NCBI GenBank assembly: GCA_028821515.1
Contig: JAPPGA010000068.1
Coordinates: forward strand, 1-64,000
Length of the DNA stretch: 64,000 nucleotides
Reading direction: 5' to 3'
Source of the DNA: Gammaproteobacteria bacterium
GTDB taxonomy: Bacteria > Pseudomonadota > Gammaproteobacteria > Pseudomonadales > Azotimanducaceae
Shown: positions 10,204 to 18,907 of the stretch, piece by piece
Layout: the number at the start of each line of letters is the position of its first letter
Position numbering within the stretch: position 1 is the stretch's first letter
The notes under the pieces: model-generated
The model's database searches: none
The model's input: only the letters and a program-made list of their open reading frames with translations
What the model was told of the DNA's origin: nothing
Translations under genes and position numbers: made by a program

Positions 10204-10224
10204 CTCGCGATTATGCTGATCCCC
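10204..10224 (+). promoter_or_regulatory. Duplicated upstream element of cupin 1
   Basis: This 21-bp block recurs upstream of cupin 2 at 10940-10960 with two mismatches. Each copy contains TATGCT (10212-10217 and 10948-10953), a plausible -10 hexamer. The duplication therefore seems to have copied promoter and gene together. No good -35 is obvious. Confidence 0.4.
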
Positions 10225-10245
10225 AGGGAGAACTGGGGAGTCAAG

Positions 10246-10917
10246 ATGGCCGAACCGCAAGAGCGCGTCGAAGGACAACCGCAGAATAGGGAGCGGCGAC
10301 GGTACATCTCCGAACGCGGCCCATTCGAGATACGCGCCAACCCCGAGATCAGGCAACCTCGCCCGAAGGGCACCACGGACGAAGTCCGCGCCCTCCAGGT
10401 CTTCGAACACAGCGACCTGGCCGAAAAGTACGGGGAAGCGCCTGTGGCTGAAAAGATCATCGAGATGCACAAGGCCTTGGCGGGCGGCCTCACCTCCACC
10501 TCGCTCTTCGCCCAGCGCGACACGCCGGGCGGCATGACCCTGTCCCACGTGTGGATGGGGGCAAATTTCCTGATATATCGCCACAGCCATCCCCGTGGCG
10601 GGGACTGCCTCTACTACGTGGTCGCGGGCGAAGTCTCCCTCGGCCGGCGCAAACTGCGCGCCGGTTCCGTCGTCTTCCTGCCGAGCGGCATGCCGTACAA
10701 GTTCAGGGCCGGGCCGGCCGGCGCCGAGGTGCTCGAGTTTCGAGCGGGCGGCGGCGACCCCAACGCCCCCGGTCTGAAGCTCGAGGAGCACTCCCTGGAC
10801 TCGCTCCAGAACCTAATCGACGAAGGCAAGGCCCACCGGGATGGATGGATAGTGCCCGAGAAAATCGGGGATACGGCACTACGCCAGGCGGAGGTGGATG
10901 CGCGCGCGGGCGAATAG
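10246..10917 (+). CDS. Tandem cupin 1 (RmlC-like)
   Basis: A 223-residue single-domain cupin, first of four tandem paralogues. An N-terminal variable region leads to the shared ISERGPFEIRANPE block, a helical linker with LAEKYGEAP, then the cupin motif with YRHSHPRGGDCLYYVVAGE (metal ligands His-x-His, Asp in the usual Glu position) and motif 2 LPSGMPYKFRAG, where the usual His is Tyr. ATG 10246 is chosen over 10213 because the MAEPQE start is shared with copy 2. Enzyme, sensor or binding role is unknown. Confidence 0.8.
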   Translation: MAEPQERVEGQPQNRERRRYISERGPFEIRANPEIRQPRPKGTTDEVRALQVFEHSDLAEKYGEAPVAEKIIEMHKALAGGLTSTSLFAQRDTPGGMTLSHVWMGANFLIYRHSHPRGGDCLYYVVAGEVSLGRRKLRAGSVVFLPSGMPYKFRAGPAGAEVLEFRAGGGDPNAPGLKLEEHSLDSLQNLIDEGKAHRDGWIVPEKIGDTALRQAEVDARAGE

Positions 10918-10939
10918 CGCCGGATTGCCGGTCACGGCT

Positions 10940-10960
10940 CTCGCGACTATGCTCATCCCC
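10940..10960 (+). promoter_or_regulatory. Duplicated upstream element of cupin 2
   Basis: Second copy of the block at 10204-10224, with two mismatches and a TATGCT hexamer at 10948-10953. It lies 23 bp before the cupin 2 ATG. Cupins 3 and 4 lack it and abut the preceding gene. Confidence 0.4.
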
Positions 10961-10982
10961 ATAGGAACAATCGGGTACCTCC

Positions 10983-11648
10983 ATGGCTGAACCACAAGAA
11001 CAACCCGCAGAGCCACTCCCCAAGAAGTCGCGGGTTCGTTACGTCTCCGAACGCGGCCCGTTCGAGATACGCGCCAACCCCACCCTCAACCAGCCCCGCA
11101 AGCGTGGCACCGTCGACAGGGCCCGTGTCCACGAGAACTACGAGCAAAGCCCGCTGGCCGAGAAATACGGGAAGGCTGGCGAAGAAAAGATGATCGAGAT
11201 GGCCCACGCAACGGCAGGGGGTATCACTTCGACCCGGCTGTTCGATCAGGACGCGCCCAACGGCATGCGCCTGTCCCACGTGTGGATGGGAGCCAACTAC
11301 CAGCTATCCCGCCACAGCCATCCGAAATTCGGGGACTGCCTTTACTGCGTGGTCGCCGGCGAAATCTACCTGGGTTCGCGCAGGTTGGGGGCTGGCTCTG
11401 TCATCTTCCTGCCGGAGGGCATGCCGTACAAGTTCAAGGCGGGTCCGGCCGGCGCCGAGGTGCTCGAGTATCGATCCGACGGCGAAGGCGACAAGAACGC
11501 CCCTCTCGTCAAGCTTGCGGAGGACTCCATCGAGTCGATCCAGCAGATCATCGACGCGGGCAAGGCACACCAACACGAGTGGGAAGCGCCCGAGCAGTGC
11601 GGCGATACGGCAATACGCCAGGCCGAACTGGACGGGAGAAACAAATAG
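10983..11648 (+). CDS. Tandem cupin 2
   Basis: A 221-residue paralogue of cupin 1 with the same N-terminal VSERGPFEIRANP block and cupin motif RHSHPKFGDCLYCVVAGE; one Tyr of the other copies is Cys here. Motif 2 reads LPEGMPYKFKAG. It differs most in the linker after the N-terminal block (VDRARVHENYEQ) and near the end (SDGEGDKNAP). Its own upstream element suggests a separate promoter. The stop TAG shares its G with the GTG of cupin 3. Confidence 0.8.
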   Translation: MAEPQEQPAEPLPKKSRVRYVSERGPFEIRANPTLNQPRKRGTVDRARVHENYEQSPLAEKYGKAGEEKMIEMAHATAGGITSTRLFDQDAPNGMRLSHVWMGANYQLSRHSHPKFGDCLYCVVAGEIYLGSRRLGAGSVIFLPEGMPYKFKAGPAGAEVLEYRSDGEGDKNAPLVKLAEDSIESIQQIIDAGKAHQHEWEAPEQCGDTAIRQAELDGRNK

Positions 11649-12301
11649 TGGCCGAACCCGACGCGCACGCAGGACAAAAAAGAAGGGTTCGGTTCGTTTC
11701 CGAGCGCGGCCCATTCGAAATATCCGCCAACCCCGCCATCAATCCACCCCGCCAAGCCGAGGAGATTGACGACGAGTACGGCGCCCGTGCTTTTGAATGC
11801 AGCGAACTCGCCGAGAAGTGCGGGGAAGCGCCGGTCCGGCAGAAGATGATCGAAATGGTCAGAACGCTATGGCCCGGCATCGCCTCGACGCGGCTGTTCG
11901 GCCAGGACTCGCCCAACGGCATGGTCCTGGTCCACGTGTGGTTCGGGCCCCACTACCCGCTGTTTCGCCACAGTCATCCCAAGGCTGGGGACTGCCTCTA
12001 CTACGTGGTCGCCGGCGAGCTTGTCCTGGGTCGGCGCAAACTGCGAGCCGGCTCTGTCATGTTCCTGCCGAGCGGCATGCCCTACAAGTTCAAGGCCGGA
12101 CCCGCAGGAGTCGAAGTGCTCGAATTTCGAGCCGGCGGCGGAGATCCGAACGCCCCGGGGCTGAAGCTCGAGGAGCACTCCCTGGAATCGGTCCAGCAGC
12201 TCATTGACGAAGGCAAGGCACACCAGCACGAATGGGTTGTGCCCGAAAAGATCGGTGATACGGCATTGCGGCAGGCGGAGATCGACTCCAAGGTGGAGTA
12301 G
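11648..12301 (+). CDS. Tandem cupin 3
   Basis: A 217-residue paralogue starting at GTG 11648, which overlaps the cupin 2 stop by one base; the much longer upstream open frame is a shadow inside cupin 2. It retains VSERGPFEISANP, RHSHPKAGDCLYYVVAGE and LPSGMPYKFKAGPAG. It has a distinct VHVWFGPHYPLF segment before the ligands, where copies 1 and 2 have SHVWMGAN. Translational coupling implies coordinated levels with cupin 2. Confidence 0.8.
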   Translation: MAEPDAHAGQKRRVRFVSERGPFEISANPAINPPRQAEEIDDEYGARAFECSELAEKCGEAPVRQKMIEMVRTLWPGIASTRLFGQDSPNGMVLVHVWFGPHYPLFRHSHPKAGDCLYYVVAGELVLGRRKLRAGSVMFLPSGMPYKFKAGPAGVEVLEFRAGGGDPNAPGLKLEEHSLESVQQLIDEGKAHQHEWVVPEKIGDTALRQAEIDSKVE

Positions 12302-12303
12302 CC

Positions 12304-12972
12304 GTGGCCGAAACGCAAGAGCAGGTCGACGAACGAACGCGCGAACGAACGCGAAGGCGGTTCGTTTCCGAGCGTGGCCCCTTCGAAATTCGCGCGAATC
12401 CCGAGATCACGACGCCATCCTCCCGTGGTACTCCGGATAAGGCCCGCACCCTCCAGATCTTCGAGCACAGCGCCCTGGCGGAAAAGTACGGAGAGGGGCC
12501 CGTGCAGGAGAAGATTCTCGAGATGGCCGAAGCGCTTTCGGGGGGCATCACTTCGACGCGGTTGTTCGGCCAGGATGAATCGCCCAACGGAATGCGTTTG
12601 TCCCACGTGTGGTTCGGGGCCAATTTCCCGCTGTTTCGCCACAGTCATCCCGGTTCCGGGGACTGCCTCTACTATGTGATCGCTGGCGAGATCGTGATGG
12701 GCCGGCGCACGCTGCGGGCGGGCTCGGTCATGTTCCTACCGAACGGCATGCCATACAAATTCAAGGCCGGTCCTGCGGGTGCCGAGGTGCTCGAATTTCA
12801 TGCTGACCGCCGCGACCCGAACGCTCCTGGTCTGAGACTTGAGGAGCACTCCCTGGAGTCGATCCAGCAACTGATCGACGGCGGCAAGGCACATCGGCAC
12901 GAGTGGGAAGTGCCGGAGCGAATCGGCGATACGGCCCTGCGGCAAGCAGAGGTGGACTCAGGGACCGAATAG
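12304..12972 (+). CDS. Tandem cupin 4
   Basis: A 222-residue paralogue starting at GTG 12304, two bases after the cupin 3 stop. It carries VSERGPFEIRANPE, SHVWFGANFPLFRHSHPGSG, DCLYYVIAGE and LPNGMPYKFKAG. The Arg-rich N-terminus (DERTRERTRRR) is unlike the others. All four copies keep the His-x-His pair and a Tyr in place of the second-motif His, so purifying selection on the pocket seems likely. Confidence 0.8.
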   Translation: MAETQEQVDERTRERTRRRFVSERGPFEIRANPEITTPSSRGTPDKARTLQIFEHSALAEKYGEGPVQEKILEMAEALSGGITSTRLFGQDESPNGMRLSHVWFGANFPLFRHSHPGSGDCLYYVIAGEIVMGRRTLRAGSVMFLPNGMPYKFKAGPAGAEVLEFHADRRDPNAPGLRLEEHSLESIQQLIDGGKAHRHEWEVPERIGDTALRQAEVDSGTE

Positions 12973-16039: not shown

Positions 16040-16906
16040 TCAGTCGGCTCGAGCCTTGCCTTCCGCCTTCTCGCGCACCCGCCGGGCCCTGCGCGCTTCG
16101 CCCCGCTGCGCGAGTTCGGCCAGGTCCTCTGGCCGCACTTCCATGTAGTGGTCCCGCCAGGACTCGTCGTCGCTCCACCGAAACGGTGTGCGCTCGGTGG
16201 TCCCTGGCCGCTCTGCGCGTTCGAGCAGGTCGATGCCCTGCACGACTATCGCCCTCTGCATCGATGTATCGAACGGCCTGCCGCAGGGATTGCCCAGTGG
16301 AAAGTCCGTGAACAGAAAGCGGGGCACGCCGCAGTGCTCGACCACGTCCAGCGCGGAACCGAGGATGACCGTCGCCATGCCGGCGGCTTCAAGGTGTCGG
16401 GCGGTCAGACTCACGGTCTGGTGGCAGACGGGTCACAACGGTACGAGCATCGCCGCTGCCGCGCCGTCTTCGCGGCAGCGGCGTAGTATCTCCGGGGCGT
16501 CGACCGTACGCGTGCGGCGCTGGCTGTACTCCGTCGGGGCACAGTGGAAGCGCGTCGTGATGCCCCCGATGCGACCAGCCTCAACCAACGCATTGAGATA
16601 CCGCAGCGGGAAGAACGAATTCACGTCATCCAGGTGGGTGGCGTTCTTGTCCCACTCCAGGTCATTACCGTACAGCCGTTGCGGCGGATCATCCGTCGGC
16701 CCCGATGCCACTTCGCGGACATCGGCAAAGGTGCGGTCATACAGGCTCGCCGTGGTGATGACCGCCAGTCTCGACTCGGCGAGTGGCTTCGTTAGCCGCG
16801 CGAACGGCACGTCGTCGAAGTGCGCCCAGACGTACGGATTGGTAAAGCCCTGCGCCGCGTAATATGCGCGGGTGCGTTCCATGTAGGGAACGGGTAGAGC
16901 GTCCAT
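16040..16906 (-). CDS. GrdB/PrdB-like reductase selenoprotein with in-frame TGA (probable Sec)
   Basis: Two adjacent same-frame ORFs are one gene of about 288 residues if TGA 16435-16433 is read as selenocysteine (residue 158). The junction reads LVPL-U-PVCHQTVSLTARHLE, a U-x-x-C redox motif where homologues I know have Cys-Pro-Val-Cys-His-Gln. The family is the glycine/sarcosine/betaine/D-proline reductase selenoprotein B group. Similarity is continuous on both sides: FHCAPTEYSQRRT before and GVPRFLFTDFPLGNPCG after. A hairpin with the expected bacterial SECIS spacing follows the TGA. The start is ATG 16906 (MDALPVPYMERTR), with TTG 16942 as alternative. Reaction in aerobic gammaproteobacteria is unknown. 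A plain nonsense mutation is the alternative, but the rest is intact. Confidence 0.82.
16406..16435 (-). promoter_or_regulatory. Candidate bacterial SECIS element
   Basis: On the coding (minus) strand, after TGA there are 12 nt, then CAGAC (16420-16416), loop CGTGA (16415-16411), then GTCTG (16410-16406). The loop begins 17 nt after the TGA and has a G in its first two positions, fitting the known bacterial SECIS rules for SelB binding. The stem is short (5 bp), so support is moderate. Confidence 0.6.
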
Positions 16907-17007
16907 GCAGGGATGATCATACAATCCCCCCAAACCCCTCAACGTCGCGACCGCAACGATTCATCTTGTAGAATCCGCAGGTTCGGCAAGAGACCAGGAG
17001 GAAAGTG

Positions 17008-17313
17008 ATGGGGAGCCTGACGCCTGGAACGCGGCTCAAGAGTACGGTTTGCACCACGGAAATCATGGTCATCACGGCGCCGCCGGATGACATCGAGATC
17101 AAATGCGGCGGCGAACCCATGAGTCAGGGCGAGGACGGCAACGGCGGAAGCGTGCACCAGGATCACGCCGACGGTTCCGTGATCGGCAAACGGTACACGA
17201 ACGAGGAAGGAAGCCTCGAAGTACTGTGCGTCAAGGCCGGCGAAGGGTCACTGTGGGCCGGCGGCGCGGCGATGAAGGTGAAGGACGCCACCAAACTTCC
17301 CAAGACTGACTGA
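17008..17313 (+). CDS. Small two-Cys protein of unknown function
   Basis: A 101-residue soluble protein with an ideal AGGAGG ahead of its start; GTG 17005 is directly followed by ATG 17008. Two cysteines lie about 18 residues apart in the N-terminal half (STVCTTE and IKCGGEPM), a third in EVLCVKAGEG. I do not recognise the family with confidence. It precedes an acyl-CoA synthetase by 76 bp on the same strand, so a joint role is possible. Confidence 0.65.
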   Translation: MGSLTPGTRLKSTVCTTEIMVITAPPDDIEIKCGGEPMSQGEDGNGGSVHQDHADGSVIGKRYTNEEGSLEVLCVKAGEGSLWAGGAAMKVKDATKLPKTD

Positions 17314-17389: not shown

Positions 17390-18907
17390 TTGAACATCAT
17401 GATGCTGCTCGAGATGGCGGTCGCGGGGTACGGAGACCGCGTCGCCTTCGTCGATGCCGAAGCGCAGCAGTCGATCACCTACCAGGGCCTGTTCGATGCG
17501 GCCTCGAACGCCGCGAACGATCTGCGCACATCCGAGGCGTCCCGGTTTGCGATTCTCGACGTCTCGAACCTCGCGATCCCCATCGGCCTGTTCGCGTCGA
17601 GCTGGGCCGGCATGCCGTACGTCCCCATCAGTTACCGCCTGACCGACGACGAGATCGACGGACTGGTGGAGCGGGTCAAGCCGGCCTACCTGGTGACGGA
17701 CGAAGACCACATCGAGCACTTCCATACCGAGTCGATCGTACGCTGGCACTCCCGCAGCGAGTTCCTCGACCTTGCCCGGAACGGGTCCGCCAACGGTGCC
17801 GAACCCTGGTCGATGGACGGCGACGACACGGCGGCGCTGCTCTTCACCAGCGGCACCACCGGCGCGCCGAAGGCAGCGGTGCTGCGACAGAGACACCTTG
17901 TCTCGTACATCCTGGGTTCCGTCGATTTCATGTCCGCCGACACTTCGGAAACAGCGCTCATCTGTGTGCCTCCCTACCATGTCGCGGGTATAGCCGCGGT
18001 CCTGAGCTCCGTCTATTCTGGCCGCCGCGCCGTACAGCTCGCCAACTTCACGCCGGAAGCCTGGATCGAACTGGCACGCGCCGAAGAGGTCACCACCGCC
18101 TTTGTCGTTCCCACGATGCTGCGGCGCATCGTCGAAGAACTTGAACACGAACATCACGCGCAGATGCCCCACCTGCAGTCGCTCTCCTACGGCGGCGGCA
18201 AGATGCCGCTGCCGGTCATCGAACGGGCGATGACATTGTTCCCGGACACCGACTTCACCAACGCCTACGGCCTCACTGAAACCAGTTCGACCATCACCGT
18301 ACTGGGACCGGACGATCACCGGAAGGCAGCGGCCAGCGAGGATCGGGCAGGACGCCGCAGGCTCGCTTCCGTGGGTGTGCCGTTGCCGGGCATCCAGATA
18401 GAGATCCGTGACGACGAAGGCCACGTGCTCGGTCCACACGAGCACGGCGAGATCTACGTTCGGGGCGAACAGGTTTCCGGCGAGTACGAAGGCATCGGCA
18501 GGCTGACCGATGACGAGGGTTGGTTTCCCACCCGTGACGGCGGTTTCCTCGACGACGAGGGCTACCTGTTCCTCGAGGGCCGCGCCGACGATGTCATCGT
18601 GCGCGGCGGCGAAAACATGTCACCCGGAGAAATCGAAGACGTCATGTTGACACACGACGCGGTGGGCGATGTCGCCATCGTCGGCGTACCGGACGAAGAG
18701 TGGGGAGAGGCGGTCGTCGGCGTCGTAGTGTTGAAACACGAGGCCACCGTCGGGTCACTGCAGCAATGGGTCCGTGACCGCATGCGTTCTTCTCGAGTGC
18801 CCGAGCGGCTCGAGTTCTGGGACGAGCTGCCCTACAACGAGACGGGAAAACTGCTGCGGCGCGAAGTGCGCGCGCGCCTCACGGAGTCGATGGAGAAGAA
18901 CGCCTAG
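17390..18907 (+). CDS. AMP-forming acyl-CoA synthetase
   Basis: A 505-residue ANL-superfamily ligase that activates a carboxylic acid to its CoA thioester through an acyl-adenylate. Motifs: the P-loop-like LLFTSGTTGAPKAAV, the A5 region NAYGLTETSS, GEIYVRGEQV, the hinge VRGGENMSPGEIED and the C-terminal Lys in YNETGKLLRREV. The start is TTG 17390, with GGGGG upstream. Chain-length preference cannot be read from sequence. Its TAG stop touches the partial family-B repeat. Confidence 0.9.
   Translation: MNIMMLLEMAVAGYGDRVAFVDAEAQQSITYQGLFDAASNAANDLRTSEASRFAILDVSNLAIPIGLFASSWAGMPYVPISYRLTDDEIDGLVERVKPAYLVTDEDHIEHFHTESIVRWHSRSEFLDLARNGSANGAEPWSMDGDDTAALLFTSGTTGAPKAAVLRQRHLVSYILGSVDFMSADTSETALICVPPYHVAGIAAVLSSVYSGRRAVQLANFTPEAWIELARAEEVTTAFVVPTMLRRIVEELEHEHHAQMPHLQSLSYGGGKMPLPVIERAMTLFPDTDFTNAYGLTETSSTITVLGPDDHRKAAASEDRAGRRRLASVGVPLPGIQIEIRDDEGHVLGPHEHGEIYVRGEQVSGEYEGIGRLTDDEGWFPTRDGGFLDDEGYLFLEGRADDVIVRGGENMSPGEIEDVMLTHDAVGDVAIVGVPDEEWGEAVVGVVVLKHEATVGSLQQWVRDRMRSSRVPERLEFWDELPYNETGKLLRREVRARLTESMEKNA

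Follow-up and report, generated by a model that had tools for sequence, protein, structure and literature searches.

A probable selenocysteine codon in a PrdB-like gene of a gammaproteobacterium that lacks the partner subunit family

We analyzed a stretch of 64,000 nucleotides from a gammaproteobacterial genome (contig JAPPGA010000068.1, positions 1 to 64,000), which we will call the window. Its minus strand carries a 288-codon reading frame with one internal TGA, and two genes are transcribed divergently from it. The features that we will discuss are:

16906-16040, minus strand: predicted selenoprotein gene, with the ATG at 16906-16904, 288 residues including U158, and the stop codon at 16042-16040
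16435-16433, minus strand: in-frame TGA, codon 158 of the 288-codon frame, predicted Sec158 (U-P-V-C-H-Q)
16420-16416, minus strand: 5' arm (CAGAC) of the predicted SECIS hairpin, which begins 12 nt after the TGA
16415-16411, minus strand: apical loop (CGUGA), which begins 17 nt after the TGA and has GU at loop positions 2-3
16410-16406, minus strand: 3' arm (GUCUG) of the hairpin, pairing with 16420-16416
17005-17313, plus strand: divergent neighbor encoding a 102-residue protein with conserved C16, C34-G-G, and C75 and no Pfam match
17390-18907, plus strand: divergent neighbor encoding an AMP-dependent acyl-CoA ligase; it accompanies the gene for the 102-residue protein in all 10 places described below

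A preliminary description of this DNA had proposed that two same-frame ORFs on the minus strand are separated by one TGA, that family similarity is continuous across it, and that the codon lies at the first position of a U-x-x-C motif. These proposals were correct. The TGA at 16435-16433 is the sole break in the frame from 16906 to 16040, the surrounding motif is L-V-P-L-U-P-V-C-H-Q, and the model for PrdB (TIGR04483) aligns to residues 35-244 in one stretch. Close relatives match the gene product from residue 1 to residue 288, with a single TGA inside. The 5-bp hairpin with a G-containing loop that had been described is also present, but it was said to start 17 nt after the TGA, and this is where the loop begins; the stem begins at 12 nt.

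A split frame with a hairpin is no more than chance would give in such GC-rich DNA. The window contains 30 same-frame pairs that are split by a single TGA (with open stretches of at least 150 codons before the TGA and at least 110 after it), and in 13 of these 30, a hairpin with a stem of at least 5 bp fits the allowed geometry; both counts include this gene. The case for selenocysteine therefore rests on homology, covariation, and selection.

Compared to its two nearest relatives, the gene is under similar constraint on both sides of the TGA. dN/dS before and after the TGA is 0.17 and 0.19 for the comparison with G003, and 0.12 and 0.13 for the comparison with G005. (The terms are 0.050/0.301 and 0.089/0.754 for the 156 codons before the TGA, and 0.060/0.316 and 0.083/0.618 for the 120 codons after it.) Before as well as after the TGA, the differences are concentrated at third codon positions. 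The stretch behind the TGA is thus maintained as protein. If the TGA were a plain stop, there would be two genes here, or a 157-residue protein followed by a reinitiated frame, and a GTG start is indeed available in the downstream frame (at 16414, 18 nt after the TGA). That both parts are under similar purifying selection argues against a plain stop, as do the homologs and the hairpin, described below, and we consider it very unlikely.

When we aligned homologs from a protein database, all 120 (the best 120 of 3115) had Cys at the TGA position, and these Cys homologs are full-length, which a plain stop does not explain. This count is biased towards Cys because databases that read TGA as a stop cannot list full-length Sec forms.

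We also searched 58 whole genomes, including the window's own, with the read-through protein. There were 97 matches in 36 genomes: 35 of the 37 genomes from the same family and 1 of the 21 from the rest of the order. One of these loci (L139, from G022) was not found again by BLAST and is outside the 96 that we re-aligned. Including the window's own gene, 93 of the 96 carry TGA at this position; the others are two with TGC and one fragment that ends short of the site. In other words, 93 of the 95 loci that cover the site have TGA, two have TGC, and none have TAA or TAG, which is another argument against a plain stop. One of the Cys rows (L138) is only 28% identical and has a very long branch in the tree, so it is probably a false match, but we retained it in the counts. 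There are up to seven copies per genome, every one of them with TGA (G007).

More broadly, we found a match in 16 of 398 genomes sampled from the phylum. Fourteen of the 16 have Cys codons, and two have TGA: the window's own genome (G000) and an alphaproteobacterium (G193), whose Sec copy has an additional TAG within the matched stretch. In named genomes, some of which are the same as genomes counted above, all 21 loci have TGA. For instance, Reyranella aquatilis KCTC 52223 is a named, cultured strain with the TGA form.

The same TGA is found in separate assemblies of relatives that are 90% and 85% identical. This recurrence argues against a sequencing error. A sequencing error, a pseudogene, or the reading of UGA as Trp in this organism would each fit with a single TGA being the only break in the frame. 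However, a pseudogene would not be under purifying selection, the aligned residue in the best 120 of 3115 homologs is Cys, and the genome encodes tRNA-Sec and SelB (see below). We view these explanations as even less probable than a plain stop, and we rejected all of them, along with the plain stop. As relatives are not independent of each other, the counts and p values in this study overstate the evidence.

The preliminary description had also compared the spacing of the hairpin to bacterial SECIS elements. According to the legend of Fig 2 in PMC13188914, a bacterial SECIS has a loop of 3-9 nt, a stem of 4-16 bp, a spacing of 16-37 nt, G in the first two loop positions, and a minimum free energy of -7.5 or lower. 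With a 5-nt loop, a 5-bp stem, a spacing of 17 nt, and -9.3 kcal/mol (for a 54-nt stretch), the window's hairpin is within this published rule, and it also covaries. Its folding energy is ordinary as compared to shuffled sequences (z = +0.33).

Of 104 distinct Sec sequences, 97 can form all five pairs (positions 16-20 with 26-30, with numbering that starts at the T of the TGA), versus 6.3 expected from resampling synonymous codons. The other seven each miss one pair. In contrast, pairing is complete in none of 17 Cys sequences (0.1 expected). We noticed that one Cys form nested in a Sec clade (L153) has four of the five pairs remaining; perhaps this is a decaying SECIS. The amino acids encoded under the hairpin vary by subfamily (HQTVSL, HQSVGL, TRTVST, TRAVSA, or SGAVGA), and the pairs are kept by swaps.

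To quantify covariation, we used 67 of the 116 Sec loci. This alignment, and the model built with it, exclude the window's gene and the majority of its closer relatives (L021-L065, L068, L070, and repeats of one sequence). In these 67 sequences, 122 cells are changed on both sides of a pair (35 +/- 4.7 in shuffles), 97.5% of cells can pair (68% in shuffles), and the score for covariation reaches 0.763 (0.188 +/- 0.019 in shuffles). For all three measures, none of 500 shuffles was as high, and versions of the helix that were slid along the alignment scored 0.130 or less. Two of the five measures do not set the helix apart: the number of pairs with two-sided changes (5, versus 4.0 in shuffles; 23/500 as high) and the number of further pair types (13, versus 13.5; 443/500 as high). 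The covariance model from the 67 sequences finds the window's site with 55.4 bits (E = 4.7e-14). The next hit in the window has E = 0.16, and the next best in the whole genome has E = 0.27 (150 of 2306 candidates were scored). This covariation is a further argument against a plain stop.

The window's genome (4.04 Mb in 86 contigs, with an estimated completeness of 100%) contains the machinery for selenocysteine. Both selA (548 bits) and selB (410 bits) are over their cut-offs and are on the same contig (C85), along with a tRNA-Sec with the anticodon tca (UCA). The order is selA, selB, tRNA-Sec, all on one strand, and the tRNA starts four bases past the stop codon of selB. On another contig, selD (273 bits, over the cut-off; G000:C33:7666-8574) completes the set of sel genes whose presence the preliminary description had left to be checked. 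This selD is inside an open frame of 763 residues. By eye, the N-terminal half of the frame looks NADH dehydrogenase-like, and the frame resembles the Ndh-SelD fusions that are described from the GOS data. A SelW-like gene (G000:C8:15273-15479) has an in-frame TGA in C-T-S-U and is a second likely selenoprotein, so the window's gene is likely not the only one that depends on this machinery.

Across the 58 genomes, selA is over the cut-off in 31 of the 36 with the Sec PrdB-like gene but in 4 of the 22 without it (Fisher p = 5.9e-7, not corrected for relatedness). Among the five genomes with the gene but without selA over the cut-off, three show clear partial matches to selA, G001 has only a weak match, and G035 has none.

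The frame, its codon, the machinery genes, the covariation of the hairpin, and the selection are all direct observations, and from these we infer that Sec is inserted at UGA 158. The preliminary description's proposal that the gene encodes a selenoprotein is supported by the sel genes, the Cys homologs, the covarying hairpin, and the recurrent TGA. We conclude that this is very probably a selenoprotein. For the joint prediction, that UGA 158 is decoded as Sec and that this occurs in a PrdB-like protein that lacks a partner subunit, we estimate a probability of about 0.9.

The identity of the protein is less straightforward. Its best family match is to PrdB (TIGR04483), with E = 3.9e-21 but just 75.6 bits, versus a cut-off of 300. 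The matches to GrdB are weaker: 19.2 bits for TIGR01918 (cut-off 65.45), and 12.4 bits for an N-terminal piece only in PF07355 (GRDB in Pfam; cut-off 22). At E up to 1, five NCBIfam families match, and all are reductase subunits of the PrdB or GrdB kind. Judging by these similarities, PrdB and GrdB are distantly related to the window protein.

The family of the partner subunit (PF09338, which includes PrdA and GrdE) has no match in the window's genome or in 56 of the 57 relatives that we searched. Its absence from the window's genome is a plain observation, and it implies that the protein would work without that subunit. The exception among the 58 genomes is G022, so the search does work. In G022, the PF09338 gene adjoins a gene for a GrdB-type selenoprotein (L139) with the motif U-G-T-C-T-R-C. 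This is likely a true glycine-reductase-type pair in an otherwise partnerless group. PrdC is over its cut-off in none of the 58 genomes, with weaker matches in 51 of them, including the window's.

Since the scores are far under the cut-offs for PrdB and GrdB and the partner subunit is absent, "glycine/D-proline reductase" is the wrong name for this protein. The label "GrdB/PrdB-like" in the preliminary description is accurate as a statement of distant similarity but not as the name of a reductase.

We compared the window protein to PrdB from Terrisporobacter, which has U-x-x-C-H at the same place and, judged by eye only, also a hairpin after the TGA. The two proteins are 28% identical and differ in length (241 residues in Terrisporobacter versus 288). 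Also, prdB of Terrisporobacter clusters with prdC and prdA (in the order prdC-prdA-prdB), whereas the window's gene is not in a prd cluster: we did not recognize any gene like prdC or prdA beside it.

The window protein might nevertheless be a reductase of D-proline or a related amino acid, with a PrdA-like subunit that is too diverged or is unlinked. PrdB being the best family match, and the U-x-x-C-H that is shared with Terrisporobacter, are in line with this. But the score of 75.6 bits is far from 300; PF09338 is found in only one of 58 genomes, G022, which shows that the search can detect it; PrdC is not over the cut-off in any of the 58; and the clostridial prdC-prdA-prdB cluster was not recognized at this locus. 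We think that a D-proline reductase is unlikely, and we continue with the reading of a partnerless, PrdB-like selenoprotein.

Closer relatives are found among proteins annotated as members of the glycine/sarcosine/betaine reductase selenoprotein B family, in alphaproteobacterial plasmid records. Those from Roseomonas haemaphysalidis and Haematobacter massiliensis are 47-48% identical over 88% of the window protein and have the motif P-[VI]-C-H-Q-T in common with it. They differ in that Cys replaces Sec and in their gene neighbors. The Cys form from R. haemaphysalidis (L180) adjoins a SelO gene.

To examine how the Sec and Cys forms are related, we placed 123 proteins (86 Sec and 37 Cys) in a quickly built tree. 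The tree includes 20 of the 120 database homologs, and it omits the other 100, short-ended rows, most of L103-L137, and L051, L052, L058, and L061, which we took to be second copies from genomes already in the set. The Sec/Cys label changes four times on the tree. Three of these changes are forced by well-supported branches, and one belongs to the doubtful L138. The Cys clade with the best database homologs (many of them named Bradyrhizobium) is nested inside alphaproteobacterial Sec forms. A second Cys group is also among Sec forms, with an open fork in the tree. The simplest reading of this tree, whose root is not known, is that Sec was ancestral and was lost to Cys at least twice. The portion of a 2006 survey's table that concerns proline reductase lists no conversion event (PMC1794560). 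The Cys forms that are nested among Sec forms offer a place to study the change from Sec to Cys and the later decay of the hairpin.

The clade includes several classes of active site: U-P-V-C-H-Q; U-P-L-D-H-Q; and U-P-N/L/A-C-T-R with a C-terminal extension. U-P-L-D-H-Q, which has Asp in place of the second Cys, is found at eight loci (L097, L100, L102, L104, L105, L106, L112, and L113), and all eight of these paralogs keep the TGA and the hairpin. A longer C-terminal part, with about 230-275 residues past the Sec, is found at L103, L108-L111, L115-L125, L127, L128, and L130-L137. (L115 is at a contig end and shows 173 residues past the Sec.) The longer-tailed paralogs mostly have U-P-[LNA]-C-[TP]-R.

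Selenoproteins of this description have been seen before. In a 2005 study of the Sargasso Sea, "PrdB" selenoproteins with UxxC were represented by 42 Sec genes versus 1 Cys gene, and PrdB with UxxC ranked third in abundance among the known families (PMC1088965). In the GOS metagenomes, "PrdB" had 235 Sec and 110 Cys forms (PMC2398784; 2008), and in 2021, "PrdB" was reported to account for 6.4% of selenoprotein genes (PMC9402790). Like our family, the "PrdB" of the Sargasso and GOS studies has UxxC, is from aquatic bacteria, and has more Sec than Cys forms (PMC1088965, PMC2398784). We matched them by description only, but they are probably the same family. They differ in being metagenomic and named after PrdB, and the portions of these reports that describe them make no mention of a missing PrdA, of copy number, or of covarying hairpins.

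Given the abundance of PrdB with UxxC in the Sargasso Sea data (PMC1088965), we do not agree with the preliminary description that such a gene is unusual in an aerobic-looking chromosome. What is less expected is the partnerless state, the presence of up to seven Sec paralogs per genome, and the nested Cys forms. In the open-access literature that we searched, we found no report of partnerless PrdB-like selenoproteins. As far as these searches reach, the following are new: whole genomes that encode the protein without a match to the partner family, the large number of Sec paralogs in a single bacterial family, the evidence from hairpin covariation, and the nesting of Cys forms among Sec forms.

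We also considered the gene neighborhood. The genes for the 102-residue protein and the acyl-CoA ligase occur together close to the selenoprotein gene in the window and in nine other places. (These 10 places correspond to 13 of the 145 loci scanned; some loci are repeats and many are too short to show neighbors.) In all 10 places, the selenoprotein is at least 57% identical to the window's. This hints at CoA-linked metabolism, among the nearer kin only. No neighbor is common to the gamma- and alphaproteobacterial loci that we examined, so we do not draw a function from the neighborhood.

The 102-residue protein belongs to an unnamed family of about 100 residues with CGG at 34-36 and an end like LPKTD. 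We found 121 relatives, one of which is named Acidimicrobiia. A structural model of the protein (pLDDT 87.4) had no match in PDB (the best E was 0.63). It might be a redox partner, but this is a guess. Elsewhere in the window, at 10213-12972 on the plus strand, four tandem cupin-type ORFs are similar by eye; we tested two of them and found one match to Cupin_2, below the cut-off. They are apparently a local gene amplification.

We modeled the structure of the window protein with AlphaFold2, with Cys in place of Sec (pLDDT 93.7, pTM 0.92). In the model, residue 158 lies between a strand (151-155) and a helix (159-174). The residues that are invariant across 39 aligned members include U/C158, C161, H162, Q163, R170, E173, R196, and G205. 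A sequence search for a relative of solved structure returned weak, unrelated rows only, and none was recognized. No hit from Foldseek against PDB or BFVD had an E value of 0.001 or less, and the matches from VIA-align were near its stated background.

For D-proline reductase, it has been proposed that a selenolate attacks the carbon that bears the leaving group. In known relatives, Sec is thought to be the nucleophile that attacks this carbon, with glycine or sarcosine held as a Schiff base (PMC10838667). A GrdB-type protein from Cloacibacillus is proposed to split a C-F bond, and its partner lacks the cysteines that form the pyruvoyl group (PMC10838667). As in our family, several copies of GrdB/FarB (fluoroacetate reductase) can occur within a single genome, and the likeness in chemistry that we draw is to a proposal, namely that the Sec subunit attacks a polar carbon bond; FarE is described as lacking the pyruvoyl-forming cysteines (PMC10838667). 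However, FarB retains a GrdE-type partner gene and is itself thought to feed GrdA (PMC10838667), while the window's genome has no match to the GrdE family and the window protein does not reach a GrdB-level score.

By analogy to these relatives' Sec nucleophile and to the C-F proposal for Cloacibacillus, we tentatively favor, as the most probable chemistry, the reductive cleavage of a carbon-leaving-group bond in which Sec158 is the nucleophile and Cys161 acts as the resolving thiol. As with Sec insertion, we infer both the chemistry and the electron donor. The host's SelA, SelB, tRNA-Sec, and SelD would decode UGA 158 as Sec, directed by the downstream hairpin. In the model, the position of residue 158 at the start of a helix, just past a beta strand, could keep the selenolate reactive. 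By analogy, the selenolate would attack a substrate carbon that bears an amine, a halide, or sulfur as the leaving group. Cys161 would then release the product by forming an Se-S bond, which would be reduced by a cellular thiol system.

The main alternative for the chemistry is that the selenoprotein uses its U-x-x-C for thiol-type redox reactions, on peroxides, disulfides, or electrophiles, and does not cleave a carbon-leaving-group bond. Thiol oxidoreductases are described as commonly having U-x-x-C as a redox motif (PMC1794560), we found no match to the family of the partner subunit in the genome, and the alphaproteobacterial loci that we examined have no metabolic neighbors in common. Yet all five NCBIfam matches (E up to 1) are to reductase subunits of the PrdB or GrdB kind, and Asp instead of the second Cys in eight paralogs would be odd for a thiol pair. 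Also, no thioredoxin-like chain is among the matches listed from either structure search, although this is weak evidence. We see thiol-type redox as a possibility to be taken seriously, but our working proposal is the cleavage of a carbon-leaving-group bond.

A PrdB gene is generally taken to signal D-proline fermentation by anaerobes. Sec homologs of the window protein are found in 35 of 37 genomes of one family, and 34 of those 35 have no match to the PrdA/GrdE family. The window's genome has cytochrome oxidase genes, and these genes alone support the idea that the host respires oxygen. Several relatives presumably come from sponges, as suggested by the names of the isolates. Given partnerless Sec homologs alongside cytochrome oxidase genes, a match to "PrdB" in marine data should not be taken to imply D-proline reduction. 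Also, annotation that treats TGA as a stop would cut such genes in two. Because the TGA form is present in a cultured bacterium, Reyranella aquatilis, the reaction can be tested.

More speculatively, and we are doubtful of this broader view, the large clade of partnerless, PrdB-like selenoenzymes may be used by oxygen-respiring and often host-associated bacteria to cleave diverse carbon-leaving-group bonds reductively and without a pyruvoyl group. If so, the clade would be a selenium-based counterpart, outside the anaerobic world, of reductive dehalogenases or amine reductases.
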